DNA of 40,611 bases from a virus, in the IMG/VR virus record IMGVR_UViG_3300029263_000822, positions 1-40,611 of that record. The stretch is one strand, 5' to 3'. Position numbers and translations under genes: made by a program. The first letter of the stretch is position 1. Every line of letters starts with the position of its first letter. The notes below the pieces were generated by a model, which worked only from the letters and a program-made list of their open reading frames with translations, had not been told where the DNA came from and ran no database searches. Positions 1 to 26,553 of this stretch are shown here, in pieces.

Positions 1-3000
1 GGGAAAGAATTTAATTCTTCTGTTCACGGTAGAGGAAGTATTTACTATCAAGCAAGCGCAGCAGGATTCCAAGGGCAAGTCAGTCCAGCGCCAGGATTAT
101 GGAAAACAACTCTACCATTAGATATTTCTGGTGGATTAAACATTGCTGGAAAATTAACTGGTGTTACTAGTATTGACGCAGATAGTGCAAACTTAGTAAA
201 TCTTAGTGGCAAATATGTTGCTTATGATTCTGGTAGAATTGGTCAATTTACTGCTGACAGTGGATCAGTTATAGAACTTACTGGTGTAAGATCAGTTTAT
301 AATCTTGGTTATTTTGATAAAACTTTTGTCGATAGTTACTACATGAATGGTGCTTTTGATGGTGGTATTATTAGTACCATAACAGCACAAGGCAGACTTA
401 AAAATGATGCAGATTTCGTAAGAAGTTCTGTAGCAAGTTGGACAAATGTAAACGGAACCCTAGATGGTATCCATCTTAATAAAGAAGTAATCAATGGTAC
501 ACCTGCTGGTGCAGATTCTTCATACTATCATTTAAGTTTAACAAATGATGGTAAAATATTTGCGCGAGGTCTTAGAATTGGTGAGGATGTTGGTAGACCA
601 ACTGCACCTGTCGATCCCGCACAACTCGTATATAATACTCAATTGGGTAGAGGTCTTACTCACCCACATGCATTCTATGGCATAGAACTAAATGATTCAC
701 AATTTATTTCCACACTACAAACAAATAAAATCAAATCAGATTTCAGTGCAGATAGTGCAAAAATTGGTGGTGCCAATAGTATTTTCGATAGTGTAGGTTA
801 TCCTGGAACTTCCATTTTTTCGGTAGTAGGTGCTTTAGATAGTAACTTAGTTGAAATCATAAAAGATGGTTCTATTAATTTTCAAGGTGATCTTTATAAC
901 CAAGGGGTTAAGTATGTTGGTGCTGGTATTTTCAGCAAGATTTTTGAACCAACAGATTTTGAAGATGTTCATTTTACTCCAGTAAGAAAAACAGCAGCAC
1001 AAGGTGACGCATTCCAAGTCGGTGGAAGAATGGGTATTAACACATCTAGACCTGCTCACGCATTTGACTTTAGAACTAATGATGGTATATTTCAAGTATC
1101 TGGTTTATTCAATTCTGGTGCGCCACATTACGCTTTACAATCCCCAGCAACAATTAATGCAATACCGTCAAGTTATCAAGTGTTTGGTGATACTGATAGT
1201 GACAAATCCAGAATGCTCTGGGATCCTGCCAAAGCAAGATTTAGAGCAGGATATTTCAATAGAGGTGCTATACTATCTACTGAAATGGGTTTATATTCTA
1301 CAGCATTTGGTAAAAATACCAAAGCAAAAGATTATGCTTTCGCTCAAGGTGATTCATCTGAGGCACTTTCGAGTTACAGTTTCGCATCTGGTTACAAATC
1401 TACGATTGACAATAATTCTCAATATGGTATTGCAATGGGTGCTGAAAACACCCTTGCAAATGCACAAAGTGGTATTGCTATTGGTCAACTGAACCAAGTT
1501 CTTGCTACTAAAGGTATCGGTATTGGTAAAAGTAACACAGGTATCGCACAAAATGCAATCGCAATCGGTGATAATCAAATTGCTAGTGGTAATTTCAGTA
1601 TTGCTATTGGGCAAGGAAATCAGGTAACTGGGACTAATTCTATAGCAATTGGTCCAAGCGGAAATGTTATTGGCGGTACTAACTCAGTTGGTATCGGTGT
1701 TAATCATAACATCAGCGGTTCTTACAACTTCGGTTTTGGTGATGGTACAATATTTAATAGTACCACAAATTTATCATTCGCTTTTGGTAAAAATGTAGAG
1801 GTCGGTGGTGACTATTCGTTTGGTATCAATTTAGGTACTGGTGCGGGCGCAAGTGCGTTTATACCAATTCCAAACAATCACGACAACTTCATGTCAATCC
1901 AAAATGGTAACGTAACAATTGGTAGTGATTCTGATCTTACCAGAATGGCAACACCCGTATCAAGTGGAACTGGTAATCTTTATGTAACTGGTGACTTAAT
2001 TTATAGCGGAACAAGTCTCAAACTGACTCCAGATGGAACATTAATACAATCTTCTCCTTGGGAAGATGATGGAACTCGAATTACATACACAAACGGTGGC
2101 AAACCTATTGGTATGCACGTTTCACTTCCAAACACTCCAATTGAGGCAGCAGGCGACAGAGGTTTCATATTCAGAGGTCAATATAGTGGAGCATATAATA
2201 CTGATATAAGTGAAGGCGCATCATTCTTTGACTCTGCTGGTGGGACTACCACAAGTTTCTCTAATTTTGCTGCTAATGTAAGTTTAATGGGTTACTATCC
2301 CAAGGGTGGTATATTCAGAGTTGGTTTAATAAATGTTGCAGATCACCGCAACGACTCTATGGGTGCACATTCTATTGGGATGGGTTACCATAATAAAGTT
2401 AATGCTGATTATGGTGTAGCATTAGGAGGAAATACTACAAAAGTTATTGGTAGATATTCTATTGGTTTGGGTGGTAATCTGAACGAAGTAACTGGCGAAT
2501 TTAGCACTGCTTTGAACGGTACTGGCACTAAAGTAAAAGGTAATTATAGTCTTGCTCTTGGTGGACAAGGTACTACAATTGTTGGCAATAATAGTGTATC
2601 TTTGTCTGGTGGTGGTACTGCAAACTATATCAAAGGTGCCAACACTTTCTTAATAGGTTTTGGAAACAAAGATTCTGCTGCCGACAATGGGACTGCCTCT
2701 GGAAGTCCATCATCTGGGACACCATATAAAAACTTCTTTGTTGGATTTGACAATATTGTCGATTCAAATTCACATAACATCAGAGAGAATTTTGTTTTTG
2801 GTGAAGGCAATAAAATTGCTACTACAAACGGTAAAGGTAACTTTATCATTGGTAGGGATGTTGTTCTTACTGGAAGTCAATCTAATCAAATAATTCTCAG
2901 CAACCCTACAAATGATTCTACTGGAGTTGATAATACTAAAGTTGCAATTGGTAAACATCACGCTGAATATGCACTGGATATTAGAGGAACTATTAGAGTT

Positions 3001-6000
3001 GGTGGTGACGGAGTTTATCGTGGCGACTCGTTTGATAGTCACGAATCATCAATTATTATCAACGATCAAGACATTAGAGATTATATTAAAGGTGTCGATC
3101 CAACAAACGCTGCTATCGTAATTGAGCAACCAAATATTGCATTGCCAACAGCAACTGTTGTAAACATTGAACAATCTAATCCAGCAGTTTTGGTAATACG
3201 CAATACGAATGGTATTTTGACTGATGGTAAAACTGTCAAGTTTGATCTGCCAAGTTTAACTCAAATCGGTCAATTCTTAAATGACTCTATATTTGCTGTA
3301 TCACCTGTTGTTGGTGGTCTTGGTGATAGTTTCTTATTATATGATGGTGCAACATATGCAGATGCAGCAACTCGTGTAGCAGTTAATACAATAAAAGGTA
3401 CAACCCGTCAAAAGGGTGGTGGACTTGGTATTACTCTGGGTACTGCAAATCCATACGTATATGGTACAACTGGAACGCAATACGATTCAGCACAGTTTGA
3501 TGCTGCTGGTGCAACTCCAACGGCAGAAATAGAGTTCGGTCAATACTTAGCACTCAAAAATCTTCCTATAGTTAGTGGTGGTGGATCAGCGCCCGCACCT
3601 TCTCGTTTTAAAACAACTGTTATCATGGATTCAGATTTAATTGTTGCAGGTACAGTAACACTTAATGATTCCGCATTTATTGGTAAAGATTTAGTTGTAG
3701 GTGGTAATCTTGATCTTACCACTGGTTACATGAAAACTGGTGGATACTTAGACGTAAATACTTATGGTATATTTGGAGATTCTGTCACAATTGGCGGTAA
3801 TCTATCTGGTGTCAAGGTATTCACTAGCACCGACAGTATGACTGTTGGTGGCAATTTAACTGTTGCAGGTTCAATTACTGGAGCAACAAATTACGTTGGT
3901 TCGGATAGCATGACTATTGGTGGCGATCTTACGGTTGCTGGTGCTGTCTCTGGCGTGACAACCTATGTTGGTGCTGACAGTATGACTGTTGGTGGTGGTT
4001 TAGTTGTAACTAAAACTGTAGTTACTGGCACTCATATCACTGGTGGTGGCGATCTTACGGTTGCTGGTGCAGTTAGTGGTGTGACAACGCTTGTATCAAG
4101 CGACAGCGCCATTGTAGGTGGCAACTTAACGGTTGCTGGTGCAGTTAGTGGTGTGACAACGCTTGTATCAAGTGACAGCGCCATCATTGGTGGCAACTTA
4201 ACTATCGGTGGTGGTTTGAGTGGAATAACTTCCTTGACTGCCTCTGGACCAATAACCTTTGCGGATAGTATTCGTATAGGTGGTTCGGTTAGATGGTTAG
4301 ATAATTCGGATGACGATAGTTTCTATATCGGTAATCTTAGTTTTGATAGTTACGTTCTACGTCCTGGAAGTCAAATTCTTGGGGCAGTTTTAGATTACTT
4401 CGATACTGACTATGTTCAGCAGAGAGTTGACTCATTTAACAGTTGGCAGATTTATCCAGACGCTATTGTTTACAATCCAAGTGATAAACATAAAGTTGTT
4501 GCCATTGGGATAACCAACAACCAAGCATGGACAGGTTGGAACCCATCTTTGAATGGTGGCGGCAATGCTGCATATTCACATCATTTATTGAAAACTGGTA
4601 CTACCTTTTCTGATGTAACTGACGATAGTGCAATTACACTTGCTTCTTATAACAGTAGACACACAAACTTTAGTAGTGGACTTGGCGATTCAGTAGGACT
4701 TGATATCCAAGGTAAAATCAATATCAGAACTGCGGATGTAAACGGTGATGATTATATTACTAATCCACCAATCACATTTAGTGGTAATGGAACTACGTCA
4801 ACGGCATGGCCAAACCCACCATGGTTGCGGCAAACTGGTTATATCGACCAACCATACGTCAGAGCGCAATTAGATGGTCAGTTCCTTCTTGACTTATTTC
4901 AACAAGACGCATCAACAGCAGCAAATTCTAAAGAGTTCTTTAGAGGTATGCTTGATTCCGCATATATCATTAGTATTTGGGATTCCGATTACTATTGGAA
5001 GCATGACAGTTTTAACGCAGTTTATATCGGTGCGCCAGGACAACTCTATGATGGAACTGCTGCTAATGGATTCTATTATGACGGTAATATAAAACTTGCT
5101 ATCAACAAAAGAGGTGACTCATCAGAATATAATCTTGATCTTCGTGGAGATGCTAGATTTGAAAAGAACCTTGTAGTTGAAGATAGTATAACTATGATCG
5201 GTAACTTATCTGGTGTTGTCAACTTGGCAATGTCAGGCGCTATTGGAACTGCCACTACATTCAAATCTACAGATAGTATGACAATCGGCGGCGATCTTAC
5301 TATAGTAGGATCAATTACTGGAGCAACAAATTACGTTGGTTCAGATAGCATGATTATTGGTGGCGATCTTACGGTTGCTGGTGCAGTAACTGGAGTCACT
5401 AGATTTGTCACATCAGATAGTGCAATTATTGGTGGTAGTCTCAAAGTAGAAAGTGACCTAACTATTGGTGGTGGTTTGACCAGTTCATCATTCTTCAATA
5501 TTGACTCTTTTGTTAATATTGGTGGTGCTGTTAAACTTGGTTCATTCAATGGGCGCGATTCTCACCTTGGATTGGGTGTTTATGATGCTAGTCAAATAAA
5601 AGGAAAAAATGGTCTATATGTTGGCGATAGCACTCATTTAAGAGGCGGTCTAAAAGTTCTTGGACATGATAATGTTCTTCAAGAAGCATATACCTTTACT
5701 ATTGATAGTGCTTATTTGCAGACTAAGCAAACAGTTACTATGAATAATACTCAAATCCAAAACGCATTTGGACCTAATGATGCAGACTCTCATGTCACAC
5801 TAGCATTTACAGATTCTCCTGACTTCGATTTCCTAAAAATTAAAAGAACCACTGTTGGTGGTGTAACAACACTATTGCTAAAAGGTGTTGACTATGATTC
5901 AATCGGAAACAGAACTCTCTTTGATTCCTCACAATATGGATATGGTTCACCGTCACATAACTTGGTGACGAATGCAAACAAACTTAAAAATGTTTATATC

Positions 6001-9000
6001 AAAGAACCATCACTATTAGCAACAGACACTTCTATCGTTGGTGAAGAAATTGTTGCCATAGCAGATTCCAACGGCAAAAAATCAATTATCATTGGTAGTC
6101 AGATTATTAGTCTTGCTGGACATGCTGTCCCGAAAGATTCTAATAAGTTCTCAGATGCTGGTGATTCAATTCAAGTTAATGCTGGTCTGGCACTTTATGG
6201 TGTTACTGATCCAATCGTTAAACTAAGAGCAGCAGATGGAACATTAAAAGGTCAACTGCTAAAAGATCGTGATTTTACGATTGTAGATTCTTATCAAATA
6301 AGAGTATTCACGGATATCGCAATTACTCCTGGTTTATTCCCAACTAATTATGGCACTAACGATTCATCATTTTTGATCCTTGGTGATAAAATTGATATTC
6401 AAGATAGAACTCCAAAACTCACAAGTAAATCTGACTTTGTTGGTCCAACAAATTTATATGGTCATGTTACACTTGGCAATTACGATATGGCAAATGCTGC
6501 CTATCCAGGATATCCACATACTGGTTCTAAATTAACGACCCATGATAGTTTCATTATTAAAGGTGGTATGCACTTTGAAAGCAGTGGCGATCCAGTAATA
6601 AGAAACAAAATACAATTTGATGGTGATGTTCATGTAGACTCTGGAAAGACTTGGTTCTTCGGACCTAAGAAAACTCTTACTCACTCAATTCCTGCTGATC
6701 TTAATTACAGATTTGAGTCTGATGGTGTAGGTACTGCAACCGTTCCAGCAAGGATTGAATCTGATGGTGGTCCGAATATAGCGAATAGTTTTGCTCAAGG
6801 AACACCAATTGGAACTGAGGCAGCAAAACATCATATCAATACCACAGATGGGTATGGACATTTTAGTAGCATTGTTGCAAAAACCACATTTGATTCTCAT
6901 CTTGCAATTACAATGGACTCGCACATTGTTGCCAATGTAAGAATAAATACTGATCCTCTCACATTAAATGCTGTAAGTATGACTGCTAATGATCTTATCA
7001 TTAGACCTGGAAAAACTATGTTTTATGGCACTCAGCGCCAAAGAGCATTTAAATTCTTAAAGCACGATAGTGATGGTGTCGGAGGATTGTTAAATAAATT
7101 CGAATCTGATGGTACTTTCAATGGTACTTTGAGGATGAATGGTGCAACACCATATGCTGATAGCGCATTAAACCCGCGTAGACATTATCATCAAGGTGAT
7201 TCTGACTTTAGACTTACTTTAGATTCCCACATAGTTGAGATTCTACAAAGTCCACCTTTGCCAGAAATGAATTTTACTGTTCCAGTTAATTTTAGTAAAA
7301 ACGCAATATATGGTGGTACTGCCACATTTAACGATTCTGCTGTATTTAACGGAAACTTTACTTTAAATACTGGTAACTTTACTCTTGATTCAACTTCGGT
7401 AATGACCGTTGGACCACCAGTATATTATTATAAGTATGAGTCTGATGGCACTGGCGCTGGCACGAAAACCACTCATGGTTTGGATGTTCAAAATGTTTAC
7501 CCCGATGGTCAACTTTATACTCGTTTTCAACATTTCTTTGATCGTAGTGCAACACATTTCCAAACATTCAACAGTACAAAATCTGATGCTCAAAATGTAG
7601 TTTACAAATATGAATCAGACGGTTCACCAATATTTGGCGGCAAAGGACGAACAACACCAAATGGTGTTCTACATCATGCTCAAACGGATAGTTTTGGCAC
7701 AGTTTCTAATACAGGACACCTAAGACATACAAGTCGAATCGCATTAGATTCCCATATTGTAAGAATTATTGATTCCGACTTTATTGGTGTTAGACTCCAA
7801 ACTCCTTGGAAAATTATTAATGCCACAGCAGGCGTTACTAAGAAAATCTTTTATGATGAGCAAGGTGCGGTCATTATTGGTCCACAAAACCTTCTTGCTG
7901 CGGATGACACTGATACTAGACTTGTTCTTGATTCTGGTAACGTATTATTCTTGTCGAATAATTTCCAGACAGGCGTAACAATTGGTGATGCTGATATTGA
8001 TCCTATTGAACGTGGTAATATTGTTAATAAGGGTGCTGAAGGCAGACTTATGTGGATACCACAAAGAGGTGCATTTAGAGTAGGTGCACTTGATCTTTCT
8101 GGTAGATCGAACGATTGGAAAGATAGTAATGTAGGTTACCAATCTATTGCTATCGGTAATAACACTAAAGCAGCACATTATTCAACAGCAATTGGTTATA
8201 ATGTAATAACTGGTAAAGTTAAAGAGCAGTCAGTCGGTGCTTCTAAGAATAATAATTATTCTGTTGGTATAGGTCAAGGTATAACTCAAGAGCAACGAAA
8301 TAGTGTTGCTATAGGTCTTGGAATTCATTCAACACCAGTTTCTCTCAACCAAGTTTATAACAAAACAAACATCGTAAACATTGGTCATACTATTTACTCT
8401 GCTGGTAATAACAACACTTCAATTGGTTATAGAATTGTAGCGGGTAAAACCACAATTACACCTCTACCCAATGATGGTAGTGCAAATGATCTTACCCAAA
8501 TTGGTAGAGACCTTATTGCTGGAACAACATCTGATAGATCAGTAAGTATTGGTTACAAAAACAAAGTAGAGAGTCGAGATACTCTTGCAATCGGTGATGA
8601 TGTAAATGTACAGACCAGTTCAACAAATGGTGTTGGCATAGGTAAAACCGTCAAAGTAAAAGGTAGTGGCGTAGCATTAGGTAGAAATGTACAAGTAAAA
8701 TCTGGTACTGGTGTTATTGTAGGTAAAGACGCCTCTGTAAGTGGCACTAATAGTGTATTTGTCGGTTCAAGTGGTGGTACTACTAACGGTGGTGTTGCTG
8801 TCGGTAAATCGGTATATGCGTCAAACAATGCTGTTGCTATTGGTAAAAATTCAAAAGCAGTAAATTCAAATGCACTCGCATTTGGGCAGAATGTTCAATC
8901 AGGGTCTGGCGGCATTGCGATTGGTTCTACTCTTGTTGGTAGAACTGGATCGGTACTCATAGGTAAAAGTGGTACTCAAACTGGTAACTATGCAGTATCT

Positions 9001-12000
9001 GTAGGTTCTGGTCTTACAAGTAGCACTGGTAGTGTCGCTTTGGGTGCTAATGTAAATAGTGGATCGTATAGTGTAGCGATGGGTAAGGGTAACACCTCTG
9101 GTAGTTATGCAGTTTCTATAGGTATGGGTGTTACTGCTGGTTCTTATGGCGTAGCAATTGGTCTCAACAACACAGCGTCAAACTATGGTGTTTCAATCGG
9201 TAAAGGTAACACCGCAGGAACTATGTCGATAGTTATTGGTAGGGACAACGTAGCAAATTCTGGAACATCAGCAGAACCTGGCGTTACTGTGGGTGTATCT
9301 AACACTAACAACACTCGCGCAAATATATTTGGTGCATCTAATACTGGAAATAATGACGTATCAATATACGGTAGCACAAACAGCGGTAGTAACAGTTCAA
9401 CCAATAATACACGATATGCGCTCATATACGGACATGGGAACACAATATCATCATATAATGGTTTGGTGTATGGTAAAAATAATACCGTTTTACGAAATGG
9501 TATGGCATATGGTTCTGGTAATGATGCCAAAAATGAAGGTATTACATTTGGTTACGATAATGAAGCAAACATGTTGTCAGCAAATACTGCTTACCATTCA
9601 TTTGCATTTGGTCGAGGAAATACTGTTGATAGAAATGCGCTGGCATTTGGTAGAGATAATGTTGCGGATAATCAAGGTATTGCGTTTGGTAGAAATGCAA
9701 CTGCAACTGGAGTTGCCAGCGGTGATGGTGGAATTTCAATAGGTAGAAATGTTTCTTCCTTTGGTCCTAATGCAATGGCAATCGGAACTAATATTGTTGT
9801 TGGATCAGCAGCAGCAACCGCAACAAATAGTATTGGTATTGGACTTGGAACAACATCTAATACTGTAAGTACTAATAATACACTGTCTATTCAAGGTGGT
9901 CAAGTTGTAATTGAACAAGATCAAGTAAATATTGTTCCAGCAACTGCAAGTATAGTTAAAACTGAAGGTGCATATGGCGCTGGATTGAATGTAACTTGCA
10001 CAAAATTAAATGAAAATGGTAGAGCAGGAACTAAGTACGGTCTTGAAGTAAACGGTCCAATTAATGTTAATGGTACTGATGCTTCTGGAAACCTGCACGA
10101 TATCTATATTCAAGGTATGAGACTTTACAACTATATCAGATATTATGGTGCAGATAGTGCTTGGATTTTAAGCGCAGCAGATCATGATTATGTTAAAAGT
10201 ATTGTAACAAAAGAATATATTAGAGCAACATCAACTAGTGACACATTTTTCCAAAAAAGCACTAGTGCTGGTTCTGCACATCTTGTGTATAATGGTGGTG
10301 CTGGGTCGTTTGTAGGTATCAATCTAAGTAATAGTGGAACAAGTAATACTCCTGGTTATCTAAGATATGGTCTCGACTCTGCTGGAATATATAAAACAAA
10401 CGTCGATTATACTTTAGATGTTAATGGTAATCTCAATGTTGAGGGATTGACATATCAAGGTGATATTATACTTCCAACTGGAGGACTCGATAGTAGTGTC
10501 TATCTAAATCATTATACAAATAATATTGTATATAATATTGCTGCCGACTCCGCACAAGTGTTCTTCGATTCCAATTATGTTCAAGCAAGAGGTGCATTTG
10601 GCGGTCAAACTGGAAACACTAATGATTCCGATTATGTTTTCAAGATGATCGATCAAGAATACATCGACAACACTATCACAAAAGTCTGGCCAGATTCTAA
10701 TTATGTTCATGGCAGCATTGACAGTTCTGTTGGTAATAGTATTATTGCCTTTAGAGTTAAGCATATTCTTGCTAAACATGGTGACTTTGCACAATCAGAA
10801 AATGCAGCAGACGCAGCATCAGGTAGAGGTGAAGCACAATTTACCAACCCAACTTTCTGGGAACCATCGTTTGGAACTAAGGTCGGTATCGGCAAAATAA
10901 CCCACAATCATTGGGATTCTAATCCTTCAAGAAGTGGTGTTCTAACAAATCTTAGATCAGTTGGTCAAACTACTGTGGTTGCTGGCGCTCCAGTTATTGA
11001 TACATTAGGTACAACTACTGCAAGTTTAACTCATGGCATAGGTCTTGCTGTTGGTGGTAAAGTTGTCATCCATGGCACACAAGAACCAGTTACTGGTGCA
11101 CAAGAAAGACCTGCACTTGAAATCTTTAATGGTCACATAGAAGTAAATGGTGAAAAACTAGAACTCAAGAGTCCATGGATAGAAGGTCCATCATATGTAA
11201 ATTACAAACCCATAAGCAAGTTTATCGGTGTGGGTCAAGTTGCACCAAACTTCAACTTTGATGTTGCTGGTAAAATAAATGCAGATAGTGGTTTATTCGT
11301 CAATGGAATTGATATCAAAAATATTTACGATTCTGCATGGATATTGAGCGCAACTGATGAAACTTACATTAAAGGGATAGCAGATTCTGATTATATCCTA
11401 ACAACATTGAATGCAACTAAGCATATTCTCCCAGAACTAGATATTAGTTATGATCTTGGTAGTCCTACTCAAAGATTTAGAGATTTGTATTTGAGCAGCA
11501 ATTCGATCAAACTTGGTGATGTAACTATAAATTCGGGTCCAACTGGTCTCGCACTCTCTGATAGTGCTGGAAATCTTCTAAAGTTTGGCGGCATTGATTC
11601 TGATGCGATTGCTGGATTTGTTGATAGTGATTATGTCAAATCTAGGGCAGACTCTGCATATGTACAATCTATAATTACACCTGTCTTTATCAAAACTATT
11701 GCAGACTCTGCATATGTTAAGTTGCTGGCAGACTCTGATTATATCAAAACATCAGCAGATTCCGATTACATCAAGTTAGTAGCAGATTCTGATTATGTTA
11801 AAAGTGCTGCTGACAGCGCACATATTTTGGGAATAGCAGATTCTGCTTGGATTACTTCTATTGCCGATAGCGCATATGTTTTAGGTATAGCAGATTCAGC
11901 GTATGTAACAACAGTCATTGATGCAAAACTTGCAGCAACTGGTCACATTATTCCTGCGTTAGATAGCGCATTTGATCTTGGTAGCGTAACTCATAAATTT

Positions 12001-14175
12001 AAAGACTTGTTCCTAAGTGGTAGTACGATCAATCTTGGTGGTACAAAATTAAAATCAACTAGTAACGGTGTAGAGATTTCTGATAGTGCTGGAAATAAAT
12101 CAAAAGTATTGGGTGTTGACTCATCTGCAACTGGGTCATTTATTGACAGTGCTTATATTAGGAATAAAGCAGACAGTTCATATATCTTAGGAATAGCAGA
12201 TTCTGCTTGGATTACTTCTATTGCTGATAGTGCTTATATTAAAGGTATCGCAGATTCTGATTACATCAAGTTATTAGCAGATTCTGATTACATCAAGTTA
12301 GTAGCAGATTCTGATTATATCAAAACTGCTGCTGATAGCGCATATATCCAAGGATTTATTTCCACACCATACATAAAAGGTATAATAGACTCAGCGCATA
12401 TTAATCCAATCACTGGTATTGGTACTAGAACTATAGACTTTGGTGCCAATAAGATTTATTATAATAACACTTTTGCACAAACTGCTCAATTACCAAGTGC
12501 TACAACATACAAAGGGATGTTTGTATGGGATAACCAAGCACAACTTCCAAAGATTGCCGTTGGTGGAAATTGGATGGAATTGGCAAGGGCAACTGATGTT
12601 AGAGCAATTGCAGACAGTGCAGCAGCAGCATTAGTCAATTTGGCACCATCAACATTGAATACCCTGAATGAATTAGCAGCAGCAGTGGGTGATGACGCTA
12701 ATTTCTCAACTACTATAACAACTAGTATTGCTGAGAAATTACCCCTTGCTGGTGGTACGATGACAGGCGCTATTGACATGGGTGCCAATAATATTACCAC
12801 AACTGGTAAAATGCTTTATTCAAATGTATATGCTACAGAAGGCGATCTTCCAAGTGCAGGATCTTATCATGGTATGTTTGCTCATGTGCATGGCACAACT
12901 CGCGCATATTATGCTCATGCTGGAAATTGGATAACATTGGCAAATCTGTCAGACGCTTCGACAGATAGCGCAACAATTACTAATCTTATTGACAGTGCTT
13001 ATGTAGCAGCAAGAACTACTGCTGGTACTGATAGCGCATCCATTGTTAATATGATTGATAGTGCTTATGTAGCAGCAAGAAGTTCTGGTGGTGGTAGTTA
13101 CACTTCAACTATTACTCCTTATCATTATGTTTCAACTGCAAATCAAACAGTGTTTACTGGTGCTGACGCTACGGGCGATACACTATCATATAGTGCAAAT
13201 TCTGTAAATGTTTATGTGAATGGTATCAATCTTTTAAAAGCAATTGATTATACCACCAATGGTGCTGGAACCACAATTACTCTATTATCTGGCACAAATG
13301 TTGCAGATGATGTTGTCATAAATGCTCTAAGTCAAGTTGGTGCATCTGATGCAACAATAGCATCTGCTGTTAGTTTAACTATCGACAGTGCTTACATAGC
13401 AGCAAGAACTACTGCTGGTACTGATAGTGCATCAATTATTAACATGATTGACAGTGCTTACGTAGCAGCAAGAACTACTGCTGGCACCGACAGCGCATCC
13501 ATTGTTAATATGATTGATAGTGCTTATGTTGCGGCAAGAACTTCTGGTGGACTAACAATTTCTGATAATCCTCCAGCGGCACCAAGTTCTGGCGCATTGT
13601 GGTTTGATCCAGAAACACTTGAAACCTACGTTTATTACACTGATAGTGACAACACAGCACAATGGGTTAAATCTAATCCAACTGGATTATCCAACTCTAG
13701 TGTTGTGCATCTTATTGATAGTGCTTATGTTGCGGCAAGAACTACTGCTGGAACTGACAGTGCATCAATTGTTAATATGATTGATAGTGCTTATGTTGCG
13801 GCAAGAACTACTGCTGGTACTGATAGTGCATCAATTATTAACATGATTGATAGTGCTTATGTTGCGGCAAGAGTAGATATTGCTTCTAATTGGACTGAGG
13901 TTACAACATCACCTATTACTGCGATTGCCAACCAAAGACTTCTCGTAAATACATCAACTGCTAAAACTATTCTTCTCCCAGGGGGTGCAGTTTTGGGTGA
14001 TGAGATTAGATTTATTGATGCAACAGGCGAGGCAAGCACCAATAATATTACTATAAATAGGAATGGACACAAGATAGAAGCAAGTGATTCAGACTTGACT
14101 ATTGATGTTTCTAGAGCGGCATTTGGATTAGTATATTATAATGTTGCAAATGGTTGGTTATTTACGGAGAAATAA
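1..14175 (+). CDS. Giant repetitive tail-fibre/adhesin-like structural protein, 5' end outside window
   Basis: The frame is open from base 1, so the first in-frame ATG (343) is not the true start; 4724 codons are visible. Residue numbers here count from base 1. Visible modules: YadA-like head repeats (AIGxxN type) at about 420-640, 763-987 and 2700-3293; GGNLTVAG/DSMTIGG repeats at about 1200-1430 and 1750-1850; ESDG-rich segment at about 2235-2570; several LDVxGxI modules (for example near 3465 and 3755); two DLGS plus nonapeptide ADSxYxxxx arrays at about 3808-4120; a phage-tail-repeat-like stretch near 4210-4270 (LAPSTLNTLNELAAAVG); 22-residue DSAYVAAR repeats to about 4624; and a C-terminal beta domain ending WLFTEK. 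No enzymatic motif was seen. This is known fibre architecture, probably trimeric and distal on the virion, but attachment site and receptor are unknown. The stop abuts the next ATG. Confidence 0.85.
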   Translation, partial: GKEFNSSVHGRGSIYYQASAAGFQGQVSPAPGLWKTTLPLDISGGLNIAGKLTGVTSIDADSANLVNLSGKYVAYDSGRIGQFTADSGSVIELTGVRSVYNLGYFDKTFVDSYYMNGAFDGGIISTITAQGRLKNDADFVRSSVASWTNVNGTLDGIHLNKEVINGTPAGADSSYYHLSLTNDGKIFARGLRIGEDVGRPTAPVDPAQLVYNTQLGRGLTHPHAFYGIELNDSQFISTLQTNKIKSDFSADSAKIGGANSIFDSVGYPGTSIFSVVGALDSNLVEIIKDGSINFQGDLYNQGVKYVGAGIFSKIFEPTDFEDVHFTPVRKTAAQGDAFQVGGRMGINTSRPAHAFDFRTNDGIFQVSGLFNSGAPHYALQSPATINAIPSSYQVFGDTDSDKSRMLWDPAKARFRAGYFNRGAILSTEMGLYSTAFGKNTKAKDYAFAQGDSSEALSSYSFASGYKSTIDNNSQYGIAMGAENTLANAQSGIAIGQLNQVLATKGIGIGKSNTGIAQNAIAIGDNQIASGNFSIAIGQGNQVTGTNSIAIGPSGNVIGGTNSVGIGVNHNISGSYNFGFGDGTIFNSTTNLSFAFGKNVEVGGDYSFGINLGTGAGASAFIPIPNNHDNFMSIQNGNVTIGSDSDLTRMATPVSSGTGNLYVTGDLIYSGTSLKLTPDGTLIQSSPWEDDGTRITYTNGGKPIGMHVSLPNTPIEAAGDRGFIFRGQYSGAYNTDISEGASFFDSAGGTTTSFSNFAANVSLMGYYPKGGIFRVGLINVADHRNDSMGAHSIGMGYHNKVNADYGVALGGNTTKVIGRYSIGLGGNLNEVTGEFSTALNGTGTKVKGNYSLALGGQGTTIVGNNSVSLSGGGTANYIKGANTFLIGFGNKDSAADNGTASGSPSSGTPYKNFFVGFDNIVDSNSHNIRENFVFGEGNKIATTNGKGNFIIGRDVVLTGSQSNQIILSNPTNDSTGVDNTKVAIGKHHAEYALDIRGTIRVGGDGVYRGDSFDSHESSIIINDQDIRDYIKGVDPTNAAIVIEQPNIALPTATVVNIEQSNPAVLVIRNTNGILTDGKTVKFDLPSLTQIGQFLNDSIFAVSPVVGGLGDSFLLYDGATYADAATRVAVNTIKGTTRQKGGGLGITLGTANPYVYGTTGTQYDSAQFDAAGATPTAEIEFGQYLALKNLPIVSGGGSAPAPSRFKTTVIMDSDLIVAGTVTLNDSAFIGKDLVVGGNLDLTTGYMKTGGYLDVNTYGIFGDSVTIGGNLSGVKVFTSTDSMTVGGNLTVAGSITGATNYVGSDSMTIGGDLTVAGAVSGVTTYVGADSMTVGGGLVVTKTVVTGTHITGGGDLTVAGAVSGVTTLVSSDSAIVGGNLTVAGAVSGVTTLVSSDSAIIGGNLTIGGGLSGITSLTASGPITFADSIRIGGSVRWLDNSDDDSFYIGNLSFDSYVLRPGSQILGAVLDYFDTDYVQQRVDSFNSWQIYPDAIVYNPSDKHKVVAIGITNNQAWTGWNPSLNGGGNAAYSHHLLKTGTTFSDVTDDSAITLASYNSRHTNFSSGLGDSVGLDIQGKINIRTADVNGDDYITNPPITFSGNGTTSTAWPNPPWLRQTGYIDQPYVRAQLDGQFLLDLFQQDASTAANSKEFFRGMLDSAYIISIWDSDYYWKHDSFNAVYIGAPGQLYDGTAANGFYYDGNIKLAINKRGDSSEYNLDLRGDARFEKNLVVEDSITMIGNLSGVVNLAMSGAIGTATTFKSTDSMTIGGDLTIVGSITGATNYVGSDSMIIGGDLTVAGAVTGVTRFVTSDSAIIGGSLKVESDLTIGGGLTSSSFFNIDSFVNIGGAVKLGSFNGRDSHLGLGVYDASQIKGKNGLYVGDSTHLRGGLKVLGHDNVLQEAYTFTIDSAYLQTKQTVTMNNTQIQNAFGPNDADSHVTLAFTDSPDFDFLKIKRTTVGGVTTLLLKGVDYDSIGNRTLFDSSQYGYGSPSHNLVTNANKLKNVYIKEPSLLATDTSIVGEEIVAIADSNGKKSIIIGSQIISLAGHAVPKDSNKFSDAGDSIQVNAGLALYGVTDPIVKLRAADGTLKGQLLKDRDFTIVDSYQIRVFTDIAITPGLFPTNYGTNDSSFLILGDKIDIQDRTPKLTSKSDFVGPTNLYGHVTLGNYDMANAAYPGYPHTGSKLTTHDSFIIKGGMHFESSGDPVIRNKIQFDGDVHVDSGKTWFFGPKKTLTHSIPADLNYRFESDGVGTATVPARIESDGGPNIANSFAQGTPIGTEAAKHHINTTDGYGHFSSIVAKTTFDSHLAITMDSHIVANVRINTDPLTLNAVSMTANDLIIRPGKTMFYGTQRQRAFKFLKHDSDGVGGLLNKFESDGTFNGTLRMNGATPYADSALNPRRHYHQGDSDFRLTLDSHIVEILQSPPLPEMNFTVPVNFSKNAIYGGTATFNDSAVFNGNFTLNTGNFTLDSTSVMTVGPPVYYYKYESDGTGAGTKTTHGLDVQNVYPDGQLYTRFQHFFDRSATHFQTFNSTKSDAQNVVYKYESDGSPIFGGKGRTTPNGVLHHAQTDSFGTVSNTGHLRHTSRIALDSHIVRIIDSDFIGVRLQTPWKIINATAGVTKKIFYDEQGAVIIGPQNLLAADDTDTRLVLDSGNVLFLSNNFQTGVTIGDADIDPIERGNIVNKGAEGRLMWIPQRGAFRVGALDLSGRSNDWKDSNVGYQSIAIGNNTKAAHYSTAIGYNVITGKVKEQSVGASKNNNYSVGIGQGITQEQRNSVAIGLGIHSTPVSLNQVYNKTNIVNIGHTIYSAGNNNTSIGYRIVAGKTTITPLPNDGSANDLTQIGRDLIAGTTSDRSVSIGYKNKVESRDTLAIGDDVNVQTSSTNGVGIGKTVKVKGSGVALGRNVQVKSGTGVIVGKDASVSGTNSVFVGSSGGTTNGGVAVGKSVYASNNAVAIGKNSKAVNSNALAFGQNVQSGSGGIAIGSTLVGRTGSVLIGKSGTQTGNYAVSVGSGLTSSTGSVALGANVNSGSYSVAMGKGNTSGSYAVSIGMGVTAGSYGVAIGLNNTASNYGVSIGKGNTAGTMSIVIGRDNVANSGTSAEPGVTVGVSNTNNTRANIFGASNTGNNDVSIYGSTNSGSNSSTNNTRYALIYGHGNTISSYNGLVYGKNNTVLRNGMAYGSGNDAKNEGITFGYDNEANMLSANTAYHSFAFGRGNTVDRNALAFGRDNVADNQGIAFGRNATATGVASGDGGISIGRNVSSFGPNAMAIGTNIVVGSAAATATNSIGIGLGTTSNTVSTNNTLSIQGGQVVIEQDQVNIVPATASIVKTEGAYGAGLNVTCTKLNENGRAGTKYGLEVNGPINVNGTDASGNLHDIYIQGMRLYNYIRYYGADSAWILSAADHDYVKSIVTKEYIRATSTSDTFFQKSTSAGSAHLVYNGGAGSFVGINLSNSGTSNTPGYLRYGLDSAGIYKTNVDYTLDVNGNLNVEGLTYQGDIILPTGGLDSSVYLNHYTNNIVYNIAADSAQVFFDSNYVQARGAFGGQTGNTNDSDYVFKMIDQEYIDNTITKVWPDSNYVHGSIDSSVGNSIIAFRVKHILAKHGDFAQSENAADAASGRGEAQFTNPTFWEPSFGTKVGIGKITHNHWDSNPSRSGVLTNLRSVGQTTVVAGAPVIDTLGTTTASLTHGIGLAVGGKVVIHGTQEPVTGAQERPALEIFNGHIEVNGEKLELKSPWIEGPSYVNYKPISKFIGVGQVAPNFNFDVAGKINADSGLFVNGIDIKNIYDSAWILSATDETYIKGIADSDYILTTLNATKHILPELDISYDLGSPTQRFRDLYLSSNSIKLGDVTINSGPTGLALSDSAGNLLKFGGIDSDAIAGFVDSDYVKSRADSAYVQSIITPVFIKTIADSAYVKLLADSDYIKTSADSDYIKLVADSDYVKSAADSAHILGIADSAWITSIADSAYVLGIADSAYVTTVIDAKLAATGHIIPALDSAFDLGSVTHKFKDLFLSGSTINLGGTKLKSTSNGVEISDSAGNKSKVLGVDSSATGSFIDSAYIRNKADSSYILGIADSAWITSIADSAYIKGIADSDYIKLLADSDYIKLVADSDYIKTAADSAYIQGFISTPYIKGIIDSAHINPITGIGTRTIDFGANKIYYNNTFAQTAQLPSATTYKGMFVWDNQAQLPKIAVGGNWMELARATDVRAIADSAAAALVNLAPSTLNTLNELAAAVGDDANFSTTITTSIAEKLPLAGGTMTGAIDMGANNITTTGKMLYSNVYATEGDLPSAGSYHGMFAHVHGTTRAYYAHAGNWITLANLSDASTDSATITNLIDSAYVAARTTAGTDSASIVNMIDSAYVAARSSGGGSYTSTITPYHYVSTANQTVFTGADATGDTLSYSANSVNVYVNGINLLKAIDYTTNGAGTTITLLSGTNVADDVVINALSQVGASDATIASAVSLTIDSAYIAARTTAGTDSASIINMIDSAYVAARTTAGTDSASIVNMIDSAYVAARTSGGLTISDNPPAAPSSGALWFDPETLETYVYYTDSDNTAQWVKSNPTGLSNSSVVHLIDSAYVAARTTAGTDSASIVNMIDSAYVAARTTAGTDSASIINMIDSAYVAARVDIASNWTEVTTSPITAIANQRLLVNTSTAKTILLPGGAVLGDEIRFIDATGEASTNNITINRNGHKIEASDSDLTIDVSRAAFGLVYYNVANGWLFTEK
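1261..1920 (+). repeat. YadA-like head repeats, block 1 of the giant protein
   Basis: About 220 residues of degenerate 14-16-residue repeats with the core S-x-A-I-G-x-x-N (AIAIGDN, SIAIGQGN, GIAIGQLN). This is the signature of the left-handed beta-roll heads of trimeric autotransporters (YadA/Hia head family). It is preceded by a GINTSRPAHAFDF module resembling the VGIGTxxPxxxLDV linker of fibre proteins. In a phage protein this most likely forms a trimeric shaft or knob. Confidence 0.75.
2290..2960 (+). repeat. YadA-like head repeats, block 2 of the giant protein
   Basis: A second head-type run with units such as HSIGMGYHNKV, YGVALGGN, YSIGLGGN and YSLALGGQ, more degenerate than block 1. 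It ends in the linker KVAIGKHHAEYALDIRG, the same head-then-LDVxG order seen elsewhere in the protein. The order suggests that a head plus neck cassette was duplicated. Confidence 0.7.
3822..4221 (+). repeat. 24-residue DSMTVGGNLTVAG repeat array
   Basis: Tandem units of D-S-x-x-x-x-G-G-x-L-T-V-A-G-x-x-x-G-x-T. Two units contain a perfect 44-nt direct repeat (4057-4100 and 4129-4172, offset 72 nt). Positions 3871-3944 recur at 5311-5384 with two mismatches, 1440 nt downstream and in frame. These are the most DNA-similar repeats I found in the window, so copy number may vary through slippage or recombination. Confidence 0.8.
5311..5384 (+). repeat. Distal copy of the 3871-3944 repeat
   Basis: 74 nt identical to 3871-3944 except at two positions, in the same reading frame. 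It sits in a second short block of DSMTIGGDLT units (about 5260-5480). The copies are separated by 1440 nt that encode an unrelated globular-looking region (residues about 1430-1720). Confidence 0.8.
6700..7710 (+). repeat. ESDG-motif-rich segment of the giant protein
   Basis: At least five copies of F/Y-E-S-D-G or R-I-E-S-D-G (for example YRFESDGVG, NKFESDGTF, YKYESDGTG, YKYESDGSP), each followed by a Gly/Thr-rich turn and alternating with LDSHIV motifs (three or more copies). The same ESDG motif appears twice near the end of the neighbouring 1563-aa protein (about 18307-18370). Acidic, Gly-containing loops like this could bind calcium, but that is inference. Confidence 0.5.
8100..9870 (+). 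repeat. YadA-like head repeats, block 3 (largest)
   Basis: About 590 residues of SxAIGxN-type repeats (YSVAMGKGNTSG, YAVSIGMGVTAG, YGVAIGLNNTAS, YGVSIGKGNTAG). The period is 14 residues in the cleanest part, near 9000-9230. It ends at the NTLSIQGGQVVIEQDQVNI segment. This is two to three times longer than blocks 1 and 2 and would form a long beta-roll. Confidence 0.75.
11422..12360 (+). repeat. Duplicated DLGS module plus nonapeptide ADSxYxxxx arrays
   Basis: Two copies of a unit that begins HI(L/I)P-x-LD-x-x-x-DLGS-x-x-x-(R/K)F(R/K)DL at 11422 and 11944, 522 nt apart. Each is followed by an SDSAGN segment and then a 9-residue repeat array: 8 units at 11701-11916 and 7 units at 12169-12357 (27-nt period; for example ADSDYIKLV, ADSAWITSI, ADSAYVLGI). 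The DLGS module also begins the 594-aa protein at 21614. Confidence 0.85.
12991..13872 (+). repeat. 66-nt (22-residue) DSAYVAAR repeats in three blocks flanking domains
   Basis: The unit reads DSAYVAARTTAGTDSASI(V/I)NMI. Block A is 12991-13080, block B 13384-13539 and block C 13717-13872. Between A and B lies a domain with VNVYVNGINLLKAIDY; between B and C lies an ALWFDPETLETYVYY domain. Both are recurrent phage-fibre modules. Protein copies are nearly identical while the DNA differs at third positions. Confidence 0.85.
14052..14059 (+). promoter_or_regulatory. Candidate internal T4-type late promoter
   Basis: Perfect TATAAATA inside the end of the giant gene, 117 nt before the ATG at 14176. 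In T4, gp55-directed RNA polymerase needs only this -10-like octamer. Because the site lies in coding sequence and about four such octamers are expected by chance in an AT-rich window this long, it is weaker than the intergenic sites. Confidence 0.35.
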
Positions 14176-17100
14176 ATGAGTCTTGTAGTTATTGATAAAA
14201 TTGACAGTCTTCCTACACTTGGTGTGCAGGAAGACGATGAAGCAGTGGTTGTAGAAGATAAAGCGATATATAGGCGTTTTGATTTAAGCACGATAACATC
14301 TTACTCTTGGGATTTTACTCCTAATGATACCTTGGATACAGGGTCAGCATTTAGTTCATTATCTGCTGGTTCTAATGATTCATTTTCTATAGAGTTTTTT
14401 AGTAACAGAAAAACCACTAATGAAGTGACAATATTTTCTGCTGGTAATCCTAGAATAGATTCTGTAGTAGACCTTTCTTCGGAATCTAATTCGATACGAC
14501 CATATGGTTTAACAAGCGCAGTGAAATTCGGCGCATATACTTCATCACCAACATCAGTTTATCTTGAAAGTAGTCTCGATTTTATGTCAATAGATAGTTC
14601 TATTGATAGTTTGTCATTATTTGCGCCATTTACTATAGAATTTTGGTATAACAAATATAACACTTCACCAAGTACTGGCGGCACTAAAGATGTTATCTTT
14701 GGTGCGAATAATAAAAGTTTAGTGGATGTTTTAACCATAGATGAAGCAGGAATTATTGTTAATAACATCAGATATTCTGGAAATAATGCGTATACCCAGA
14801 ATACTTGGGAACACACCGCTCTGACATATGATGGTTTTAATTATGGACTTTTTAAAAATGGAGATTCTATTCCATTAGTTATGACACCAAACAATGACGT
14901 TGCATATGAAGGTCAAACTGGTGACGGTGGTATATCGTATTCTCACGATTCTGGTTTTATGACTATTTTCGAAATGGATAGGCGAAGATCATCATCGTGG
15001 CAAGTAAGAACAACAATGTCACCTACAGATAAAACTCTTTTTTATATGGGAAGTGTTGCAAATAGAGTACAATTACAGACTATAAATTCTGGGGCGAATC
15101 TAAAATTATCAGCGGGTGATGTGAATGGACCAGAACTCATAGTCGCGGCACCAAGTGATGGTAAGGTCCATACAATTTCTTGGGATGTTCAAACTTTACC
15201 TGGCAGAGTGCGATTGTGGATTGATAGTAATTATCAAGGATCGAATTCAATTGCAGCAGCATTACCAGCGAACCAATGGGCAATTACAGAAATCGCAAAT
15301 GTGCCTGAGTTGAAATTCACAAGATCAAGTACTATGTTAGATTCTTCTACTAAATTAAGAACTGATGGTGCACAATATTATGATTCGGCAATGTTTCCAT
15401 ACTCAACATTTAATGATGAAAGTGATGGAACTTATAATTATTATGTTGCCTATCCCTTGGTGCAGAAGGAGGAACAGAAAGCATACGGTTATGGTGCTGC
15501 TTGGAGGGCAGATCGAGTCAAATCCTATACTAGATACCAAGAGTTTGCTGCAGGATACTGTGGCAAGGTAGATGGTGCAAATCAGTACCATAATGTAGAT
15601 AAACGATTTGGCAATTCGATACTGAATAATTACAACCACTTCAGTAGAGGGGGTGACGAGTGGATTGCTGCTGGAAAGAATATTCGCGCCATTAACGGAG
15701 GTCAATTAGGTGATTGGCTTCATGTCCCTAGAATGTATCTCAGTTCTTTGGGAGAGCATAATTGGTATTATAGAACTGGTTGGACGAGGACAACCAGTGG
15801 AAGCAACTATGTAACTGTAAATAATATATCCATAATCCCCGGTGGCGACCAAACCTATTATTTTGAAATGGATAAGTCAAAGAATCCATTGCGTCAAAGT
15901 CTTAATGGTTATGGTGTTCCCACCGAGAAAAGGTATGTTGATCCAGGTCGATGGTATGGAGATCAACAAAGAGCGTATCTCACTATGGTTGCAACATCCA
16001 AGTTGGCGCGGTCATCTGCTATGGGCGATACACCTGAACTCTTTAAAGAAAACATAAATATTGCGATGGATAATTACTATCCTAGAAACGGTGCTGAGAG
16101 TACGCAAGTAAATTTTGGTTACGGATATATCTCTGGCGATTTTATTCGCACAAGTCATACTATACCTGCCCGCGGGACAAGAGGGGCAGAACCACTTAAT
16201 GCAACCACAGGTCATACCGATGATGAGTTTTTTCTAGGTGGTTTTTTTCTTGTAAACAATAAGGACAATGCGGATGTCTCATATATCATATCTGAACCTG
16301 ATAATAGAGTTTACTATTTTGCAAACTCTGTATATTTAGGATACCTAAATTTTCCTTCAAGTGTTGAACCTTATACGGTAATAATACATAAAGGGCATAA
16401 TATGTACTACTATGGCAACGCCCATAACGAGGAATCGCCATCACTTCCCGTAAGAAATCTAGCAGGTTATTACCCTCCCTACGGTTCTTACCATCATAAC
16501 AGATGGGGTAGGTACTATGAACGGTCGTATTATTATAGTGGACCAGATTTTATTTGGAACAGGCACAATATCTTCAAAAAACTAAGAGTTGATCAAAATT
16601 CATGGGTATATGATCCTGTTACACAAATGGGTTTAATTCCATCAACAGATAGGAACTCAACTGCCTCTGGTGATGGTGCGTTTGGAATGGATTCTTTGGG
16701 GGATTCTTGGGAAGGTTCTCTAAAGAGCAATCTCATGTACAATACGCAATTATATACTGAGTATAAAGATGCTAATGTGACCGTGGGTGAATCGATAAGG
16801 AATAACCTTGGTGAAACGACAGGACTAGAATATGCAACAGCGTATGTTGCCAAAACTGGTGGTACTGTAGTTACTTATTCTGGCGCAAATGGTTCTAATA
16901 TCAGAGCAGCGATAGATTTATTATCTGAGGGAGATGCTCTGGTCTTGCCAAGTGGAGCATATGACGTTAGTGGCGAATATGATGGTCGTTACTATGGTCT
17001 TCCAAGTCACGGAGAAGATAATCGGCAAGCAATATGGCGTCGAGATTATGTAGGATTTTTAGTTTGTGGGGAAACCAACAACCCCAATGATGTTCATCTT

Positions 17101-18867
17101 ACTGCTAGGGGCGTTGATAGAATTTTTAATGGTAATGCTAGTGCAAATGCTCAGATAGCATTTTGCCATTTTATTCTTACTGGAAGTACATCCTATTGGT
17201 ATGGTGATGTTATAGCAGATAATGCTATAGGACGCGCATTTAGATGTATTTTCAATTTCAACAATGGATACCAAGGGTGGAGATTAGGTGGTCAAGAAAG
17301 TACATCTAAAATAATATTTGAAAATTGTTTGTTTATCAACTACAGGTACTGGTATGCTGCTGGACGGAATAATCCAAATCCCGAAATCACTGGGCGAGTA
17401 GACCTTATCACAGTCAAAAATTGCATATTTCAAAGAGGTGTTGGTCCAGCATTTCGTCCTGATCTGCCTACAGTGTCGCCTAGTTTTGTGGATAATGTAT
17501 TACAAAATCAAAAAACTTTAGATGCAAACTTAACTACTAGGACAAACCCAATGTCCGAATGGATTTTGTCAGATTATACGGCAGGTTCTAAAAAACGATT
17601 TTTGCAAGACTTTATGATTCACGACATCAATAAATATCCTTTGGCATTCTCTATAGACTCAAGACCGTCTACAAACGATAGTAATACAAATTTCATATTA
17701 GGTGCTAGAGTTACAGACGTAGCACTTTCTTATGGTACAGATGGTATAATTAAACATGGATTGCAACAAGATAGTATTCATAGTGTAGTAAGTACTCCAG
17801 GAGAGTGGATACACACATCATTAAACTATAGTGGAGATTCTAATGTATTGAGAACTTATATTGAGGGTATAAAAGTTGATAGTAGTTTGATAAATATTAA
17901 TATAGACGCTTTAAGTACAAGTACAATATCATTTAACAAAATTGACTCGTATAATCCTTCCACTAATAATTATGATGTGACAAGTGGGAGTTTCTATCTA
18001 AAAGAATTTCGTTTAGTTAAAGGTCAAAGAAGAAGCGGTGATGATTTTTCGGAAACTATTATTGCTCAAGTTGCTTCAGCAGCAGACCAAGTTCAAGCAG
18101 CAGATGATATATTCATGACAAAGCATGATGGTAGTAATCCATTAGATTTGATAATTAGTCCTTACACTGCTGATGTGAAATCTTGGAGAAAAGTGGCAAT
18201 AATGCCCCGTGGTATCGATTCTGCTTACATTGAAATTATTGATGGCAACAGCATGTTGGAATTACAAGAGGCAGATGATTATAGACCAGTTAGGCAAATT
18301 GGAATAAAATATGAATCTGATGGTAGTGGTAATTCTACAGCAATACAAGAGTCTGATGGTTCGTATAATGGAACTATTACTGGATATTACCATACTCAGA
18401 CCATTCATCCTGATTCATCTCTTGCTTTTGCGAGATCAAGTTTTGTGATAACGCTTAAAGATTCCGATGATAATGGTGACAGTATCCATTGGTCGTATTC
18501 CATAGAAAACTACAATAATAATATTTTACAAATTGGTCGTGATAGTCATAATACAACATTTTATCTTAAAGCATATGACATAACAGAATCTAATATGAAT
18601 CTTAGTTCATCGTTAAGATTTTTTGGAAAATCTACAGATTCGGTAAATAAGAGACCTATAATGGGAAGTTTAGATAGACCAATAGATTCATCTGCAACAG
18701 ATATTCATATAAATTTTGGATATGATGGAAATCTTGGACTAGATATAGCATATCTTGGAGATAAGCAATATATGAGGTTAATAACTATAGATAGCATATC
18801 TTCAACTTTTGATTCAAGCGGTTTTGTTTTTGATGCATTACCTTCTATAACTGGGGGTATAATATAA
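14176..18867 (+). CDS. Adhesin-like virion protein with LamG-like and beta-helix regions (1563 aa)
   Basis: The ATG directly follows the stop of the giant gene. A LamG/concanavalin-like sandwich is suggested at about 95-235 by FTIEFWYNK (152) and NTWEHTALTYDG (209), and a second at about 1140-1340 by PGEWIHTSLNY (1208) and YIEGIKVDSS. Between them, about 903-1100 looks like a right-handed beta-helix (IRAAIDLLSEGDALVLPSG, then repeated I-F-E-N-C-L-F and V-K-N-C-I-F strands). Residues about 440-800 are unusually rich in Tyr, Trp, Asn, His and Arg. The C-terminal part has two ESDG motifs and a DSDDNGDSIHWSYS segment resembling an Ig/cadherin-like domain. LamG folds commonly bind glycans, so a receptor-binding or decorating role is inferred. 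No signal peptide or membrane segment was seen. Confidence 0.8.
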   Translation: MSLVVIDKIDSLPTLGVQEDDEAVVVEDKAIYRRFDLSTITSYSWDFTPNDTLDTGSAFSSLSAGSNDSFSIEFFSNRKTTNEVTIFSAGNPRIDSVVDLSSESNSIRPYGLTSAVKFGAYTSSPTSVYLESSLDFMSIDSSIDSLSLFAPFTIEFWYNKYNTSPSTGGTKDVIFGANNKSLVDVLTIDEAGIIVNNIRYSGNNAYTQNTWEHTALTYDGFNYGLFKNGDSIPLVMTPNNDVAYEGQTGDGGISYSHDSGFMTIFEMDRRRSSSWQVRTTMSPTDKTLFYMGSVANRVQLQTINSGANLKLSAGDVNGPELIVAAPSDGKVHTISWDVQTLPGRVRLWIDSNYQGSNSIAAALPANQWAITEIANVPELKFTRSSTMLDSSTKLRTDGAQYYDSAMFPYSTFNDESDGTYNYYVAYPLVQKEEQKAYGYGAAWRADRVKSYTRYQEFAAGYCGKVDGANQYHNVDKRFGNSILNNYNHFSRGGDEWIAAGKNIRAINGGQLGDWLHVPRMYLSSLGEHNWYYRTGWTRTTSGSNYVTVNNISIIPGGDQTYYFEMDKSKNPLRQSLNGYGVPTEKRYVDPGRWYGDQQRAYLTMVATSKLARSSAMGDTPELFKENINIAMDNYYPRNGAESTQVNFGYGYISGDFIRTSHTIPARGTRGAEPLNATTGHTDDEFFLGGFFLVNNKDNADVSYIISEPDNRVYYFANSVYLGYLNFPSSVEPYTVIIHKGHNMYYYGNAHNEESPSLPVRNLAGYYPPYGSYHHNRWGRYYERSYYYSGPDFIWNRHNIFKKLRVDQNSWVYDPVTQMGLIPSTDRNSTASGDGAFGMDSLGDSWEGSLKSNLMYNTQLYTEYKDANVTVGESIRNNLGETTGLEYATAYVAKTGGTVVTYSGANGSNIRAAIDLLSEGDALVLPSGAYDVSGEYDGRYYGLPSHGEDNRQAIWRRDYVGFLVCGETNNPNDVHLTARGVDRIFNGNASANAQIAFCHFILTGSTSYWYGDVIADNAIGRAFRCIFNFNNGYQGWRLGGQESTSKIIFENCLFINYRYWYAAGRNNPNPEITGRVDLITVKNCIFQRGVGPAFRPDLPTVSPSFVDNVLQNQKTLDANLTTRTNPMSEWILSDYTAGSKKRFLQDFMIHDINKYPLAFSIDSRPSTNDSNTNFILGARVTDVALSYGTDGIIKHGLQQDSIHSVVSTPGEWIHTSLNYSGDSNVLRTYIEGIKVDSSLININIDALSTSTISFNKIDSYNPSTNNYDVTSGSFYLKEFRLVKGQRRSGDDFSETIIAQVASAADQVQAADDIFMTKHDGSNPLDLIISPYTADVKSWRKVAIMPRGIDSAYIEIIDGNSMLELQEADDYRPVRQIGIKYESDGSGNSTAIQESDGSYNGTITGYYHTQTIHPDSSLAFARSSFVITLKDSDDNGDSIHWSYSIENYNNNILQIGRDSHNTTFYLKAYDITESNMNLSSSLRFFGKSTDSVNKRPIMGSLDRPIDSSATDIHINFGYDGNLGLDIAYLGDKQYMRLITIDSISSTFDSSGFVFDALPSITGGII

Positions 18868-26541: not shown

Positions 26542-26553
26542 GAGAGTATCATA

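Follow-up and report, generated by a model that had tools for sequence, protein, structure and literature searches.

The window analysed here, IMG/VR record IMGVR_UViG_3300029263_000822, is an entire virus record of 40,611 bases. Its first 14,175 bases form one frame of 4,724 codons that is open from the first base, ends in a single terminal stop and contains no N; a preceding sequence-only reading had described it as uninterrupted and had placed its start beyond the window edge. The codon-position GC of this frame (0.48/0.46/0.21) is a strong coding signature (GC3 0.21), and from base composition the log10 P of so long a frame arising by chance is about -148. Since the window spans the whole record, the 5' end of the gene is missing from it; looking for the start on an upstream contig, as had been proposed, led to IMGVR_UViG_3300029266_001112 (L004; 70,971 bases), which differs from the window by 12 mismatches in 24,172 bases and, within the giant ORF, by one amino acid. 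There the ATG lies 443 codons before window base 1 and the complete protein has 5,167 aa, and the window therefore covers codons 444-5167. Anatomy is given in the protein's own numbering (window codon = own - 443) alongside window positions:

1..14175, + strand: putative giant fibre/adhesin gene, codons 444-5167 of 5167, start at L004:8672
Own residues 1-110: N-terminal domain, pattern IxIKRSS..GExxY..(L/I)F(I/V)G at the protein start
Own residues 100-370: DSAY-repeat stalk, period 5/10/20
1249..1860, + strand: head 1, beta-roll of 14-residue repeats (period 14), own ~860-1060
2299..2955, + strand: head 2, beta-roll of ~15-residue repeats (period 15, repeat motif), own 1210-1430
3622..4296, + strand: 24-residue repeats of DSMTIGGDLTVAGSITGATNYVGS type, from the repeat period (z up to 24)
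4312..5166, + strand: conserved middle domain (DDSFYIGNLSFDSYVLRPGS ... WDSDYYWKHDSFNAVYIGAP), own 1881-2165
5197..5646, + strand: second block of 24-residue repeats, from the repeat period
8125..9870, + strand: head 3, beta-roll of ~13-residue repeats, ~580 residues, own 3150-3730
11497..12621, + strand: 9/18-residue ADSxYIKxx repeats (shaft), from the repeat period
12595..12792, + strand: tail-collar-fibre-like motif, PDB 9d93 'Tail collar fibers, gp4', E 3.6e-7 / 3.4e-8
12847..13971, + strand: 22-residue TDSASIVNMIDSAYVAAR repeats with small beta modules in between, from the repeat period
13882..14172, + strand: near-invariant C-terminal cap (NNITINRNGHKIEASDSDLTIDV..RAAFGLVYYNVANGWLFTEK), own 5071-5167
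14176..18867, + strand: gene for a 1,563-aa virion-like protein, its ATG following directly on the giant's stop codon (TAAATG)

The surrounding genes are those of a T4-like phage, which agrees with the sequence-only reading. Downstream, PHROG profiles identify gp13, gp14, gp15, gp17, gp18 and gp20; neck, terminase, sheath, tube and portal genes stand in T4 order, with gp16 and gp19 assigned by position and size only. Upstream, the longer contig carries gp5-, gp25-, gp6-, gp7-like and gp8 genes, along with phrog_358 proteins, radical-SAM genes and small fibre genes. Four radical-SAM proteins (phrog_1802; L010:1-714, 2240-3280, 7210-8244 and 8241-9173) are encoded between the baseplate genes and the giant, with look-alikes recognised by eye at the same place in G008, and possibly modify the virion or the host surface. 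The nearest named phage by portal protein is C48C1 (63%), in which the giant has no counterpart, only short module matches; a 3,347-aa hypothetical protein of that phage (L002:34012-44055), consisting mostly of TYSRTRxSxY / FxGNYxRxF repeats, is unrelated to it by blastp.

The T4 late-promoter motif, TATAAATA, precedes the ATG by 39-50 nt in L004, L005, L006, L007, L008 and L026 and at a similar distance before the G008 start, that is, at 7/7 start sites. Within the window it occurs six times, all on the + strand, a count not above chance. The giant protein would be expressed late, under a T4-type late promoter of its own.

Searches of IMG/VR yielded homologues on contigs from other, separately assembled metagenomes. 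Four are complete (L005, 5,716 aa; L006, 5,747 aa; L008, 4,565 aa; G008, 4,619 aa), that of L007 runs off the contig end after at least 4,990 aa, and three are partial (G024, G006 and G007, with 1,990, 1,798 and 3,221 codons). Five giants align colinearly at 43-65% identity, L005 and L006 being 93% identical to each other; G008, a sixth, aligns at about 30%. Over their whole length, L005 and L006 differ with a dS of 0.19 and a dN of 0.040 (dN/dS ~0.21), and, judged from these rates, purifying selection is acting along the whole giant gene. Window codons 1-2700 found no match by tblastn in 50,697 phage records. In phages with a 65-67% identical gp13 and a long upstream stretch (G011, G012, G014 and G019), a profile of the giant's N-terminal domain finds no such domain, and the giant therefore marks one clade; these phages carry fibre genes of 1.8-1.9 kaa instead, and three of the four have a 412-413-aa gene beginning MATIRLKKSS or MADIRLKRSS. 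The literature searched contained no description of a giant tail fibre of this kind or of this gene family, which does not prove that none exists.

The three YadA-like heads proposed from the sequence are real: heads 1 and 3 have profile matches, and head 2 is recognised by nothing more than its motif and repeat period. The region of head 1, flanked by the RMLWDPAKARFRAG motif before it and MSIQNGNVTIG after it, scores 33.1 bits with Pfam YadA_head against a gathering score of 25 and matches solved heads of trimeric autotransporter adhesins (TAAs) in the PDB at E 3e-9. Head 2 is preceded by the motif GGIFRVG. Head 3, with ~40 repeat units, matches 1p9h (YadA) at E 1.1e-8 and other TAA heads, and its Pfam YadA_head hits are sub-threshold in 3/5 members; on the whole window part of the giant, Pfam gave 24.5 bits, just under threshold. 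Corresponding early and late head regions were recognised by repeat pattern in all six homologues. Such domains have precedents in phages: cyanophage virions have been found to contain a protein with a YadA domain (PMC9146016), and a YadA domain has been noted at a pelagiphage fibre C-terminus (PMC3909814).

Between heads 2 and 3, alongside the 24-residue repeats, lies the middle domain, which contains two 20-residue blocks, each invariant at 18/20 positions across five sequences. It belongs to no known family and has no PDB match; it was also not found in 84,980 bacterial and archaeal genomes, so that it provides no link to a host. The claim of several repeat classes was substantiated, six having been measured in the protein. 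The DSAY stalk, which is much shorter in L007 and L008, is the only part (~190-350) that AlphaFold2 modelled with confidence in residues 1-650, as a solenoid, a form that AlphaFold2 can impose on strongly repetitive sequence. A fold search of this model returned nothing from the PDB at E <= 0.001 and only low-TM matches from a viral structure library, and a pentapeptide-repeat stalk, suggested by the period of 5/10/20 and a Pfam E of 0.016, is unsupported by the fold search.

Own residues 4276-5100 comprise DSAY shafts and the tail-collar-fibre-like motif, and for the C-terminal 608 aa AlphaFold2 gave a low-confidence model (mean pLDDT 43) alternating helix and beta. The cap resembles one domain of the tailspikes 7rfv/7rej/7rfo (E about 1e-4), and the module also ends fibres of pelagiphages and unrelated marine phages. 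The suggestion that the C-terminal domains are exchangeable did not hold within the clade: no exchange is visible, and conservation over the last ~100 aa is among the highest in the giant. Head 3 and the stretch of heads 1-2 are among the least conserved, and host-specific variation is therefore to be expected in the heads and not at the tip, in contrast to T4 gp37, where such variation is located at the tip.

The N-terminal domain ties the giant to shorter proteins. It aligns with gp13-proximal fibre genes over 88 columns (hhalign probability 99.4, E 1.4e-21) and with Mosig by tblastn (E 1e-7); its relatives are P-SSM2 PSSM2_118 (T4-GC 114), Melnitz-2 gene 186 and Mosig_00068, whose genes all precede gp13 and occupy the same region of the T4-like structural cluster. 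The giant also lies upstream of gp13, with at least four genes between them, versus fewer in P-SSM2 and Melnitz. The P-SSM2 protein shares, in addition, an internal block of the same kind (VIIKGNLQIDG). Since this N-terminal motif occurs widely, the case for orthology with T4-GC 114 depends on motif and position together, and by these two features the giant would belong with the gp13-proximal fibre family of the T4-GC 114 type. The P-SSM2, Melnitz and Mosig relatives are, however, only 527, 648 and 569 aa long, so that the giant is ~7 to 11 times longer, and the triple adhesin heads were not seen in them.

Taken together, we consider it probable that the giant is a late virion fibre, most likely of the tail or baseplate, with serial adhesin heads, in an uncultured marine T4-like myophage. 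The fibre or adhesin nature put forward by the sequence-only reading draws support from several lines of evidence: (i) the N-terminal homology to fibre genes at the same locus; (ii) the TAA-type heads; (iii) the late-promoter motif; and (iv) the tail-collar-fibre and tailspike matches. The intact frames, colinear across independent contigs, and the position within a T4-like structural cluster also favour a virion fibre. Virion location, trimerisation, receptor binding and a length of a few hundred nm we infer. In such an arrangement, the small N-terminal domain would attach the protein to the particle, the DSAY stalk, the three trimeric beta-roll heads and the repeat shafts would make up an appendage of great length, probably a homotrimer, and the conserved cap would close the fibre; adhesive surfaces (heads and middle domain) would be set in series along the shaft, with the heads binding the host surface. 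The gene is best read as a fibre gene already known from marine phages that has undergone extreme (~tenfold) expansion and is organised around three adhesin heads. This expansion with its heads would be what is new, giant proteins in marine T4-like phages and the fibre type being known. A phage fibre gene would then have grown to 4.6-5.7 kaa, against 0.5-0.65 kaa in its N-terminal relatives, while still under purifying selection, and heads of bacterial-adhesin type would be connected with host recognition by an uncultured clade of marine phages. The domain of unknown fold and the three conserved heads are testable targets.

Size by itself has to be judged with care. The family, at ~4,600 to 5,750 aa, is four to five times the size of T4's own fibre proteins, but the comparison with T4 (1,000-1,300 aa) from which the sequence-only reading argued was too strong; T4 is the wrong yardstick because the marine T4-like P-SSM2 has a gp7 of 5,195 aa and a PSSM2_113 of 2,506 aa. 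With the T4 long tail fibre gp34/gp37 the giant, about four times longer, shares the presumed role of a long trimeric fibre; its window part has no PHROG family match to gp34/gp37, no long-tail-fibre family name occurs among the matches of its N-terminal part, and membership in T4 gp37 was rejected on the missing sequence-family match. A tape-measure role was set aside on the fibre-type domains. The length estimate assumes 0.03-0.15 nm per residue, a value borrowed from beta-rolls, coiled coils and T4 gp37. A single trimeric fibre of ~200-400 nm, which would rank with the longest phage fibres encoded by one gene and carry three adhesin heads and a new conserved domain in series, is conceivable, albeit as a tentative proposal that we would not favour as it stands; if true, one appendage could contact more than one receptor or span a thick surface layer.

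The most serious competitor, in our judgement unlikely, is a giant baseplate or particle-decoration protein in which the beta modules act as scaffold and bind no receptor. Baseplate proteins of giant size do occur in marine T4-like phages, among them P-SSM2 gp7 (PSSM2_111), a 5,195-aa wedge protein of the virion gene cluster in the giant's size class, and a 2,446-aa baseplate protein has been seen in S-SZBM1 virions (PMC9146016); a cap that is conserved and not variable would also suit such a role. However, gp6, gp7-like (401 aa) and gp8 are separate upstream genes here, gp7 is a different gene, the N-terminus matches fibre genes and not gp7, and the heads are of adhesin type. Less likely still is a precursor from which a number of smaller fibre or adhesin proteins are cleaved, which would fit the modularity, the common motifs flanking two head regions and the collar- and cap-like modules inside the chain; against it, no chaperone or self-cleaving (S74-like) domain was recognised in the giant frame, the S74-like domain seen by eye belonging to a separate 1,833-aa gene, and the whole chain is kept colinear in all homologues. 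It is hardly credible that the gene is cargo encoding a true trimeric autotransporter for the host surface, since, for all the beta-roll repeats shared with YadA, UspA1, BpaC and EibD (Pfam and PDB profiles), the window part has no Pfam match to the YadA membrane anchor, the N-terminus (MPATIRIKRSSTINVPENLK), inspected by eye, shows neither a hydrophobic core nor an evident signal peptide, and the protein has a phage cap at its C-terminus, a late promoter and a structural-gene context. Equally negligible is an assembly artefact, with the repeats of different fibre genes collapsed or joined into a chimera: the gene is repeat-rich and sits at the end of the window's contig, but neither a chimera nor interrupting stop codons, the two outcomes named beforehand as fatal, appeared in the independent assemblies, and colinear frames at 30-65% identity from separately assembled metagenomes, together with whole-length purifying selection, cannot come from such an event.

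The 1,563-aa gene or its homologue abuts the giant's stop in L004, L005, L006 and L008 (4/5 complete 3' ends), and the partial contigs G006 and G007 have the same junction; in G008, the fifth complete 3' end, a 457-aa gene intervenes. The protein, which has no PDB match, is possibly the product of a partner gene, a candidate adhesin or accessory protein that may act with the fibre, and that it sits on the fibre is our guess.

Several further genes of the window deserve mention. The 899-aa protein encoded next (18867-21566) has repeats that hint at a beta-propeller, with a weak Pfam match to Lactonase (E 0.007). In a 594-aa protein (21614-23398), cupredoxin-like by eye, residues 220-351 match the end of phrog_677, a baseplate wedge/tail-fibre connector profile. 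The head-closure gene gp14 (phrog_460; 25939-28176) appears split, a 200-aa gene corresponding to the front of the profile and the next one, of 540 aa, to the back, with phrog_701-like repeats, as in other virion proteins, ahead of the profile match in the latter. Finally, the 1,833-aa gene, which follows gp20 (34944-40445), is itself fibre-like, with DSAY-type repeats and, by eye, the S74-like domain at its C-terminus.
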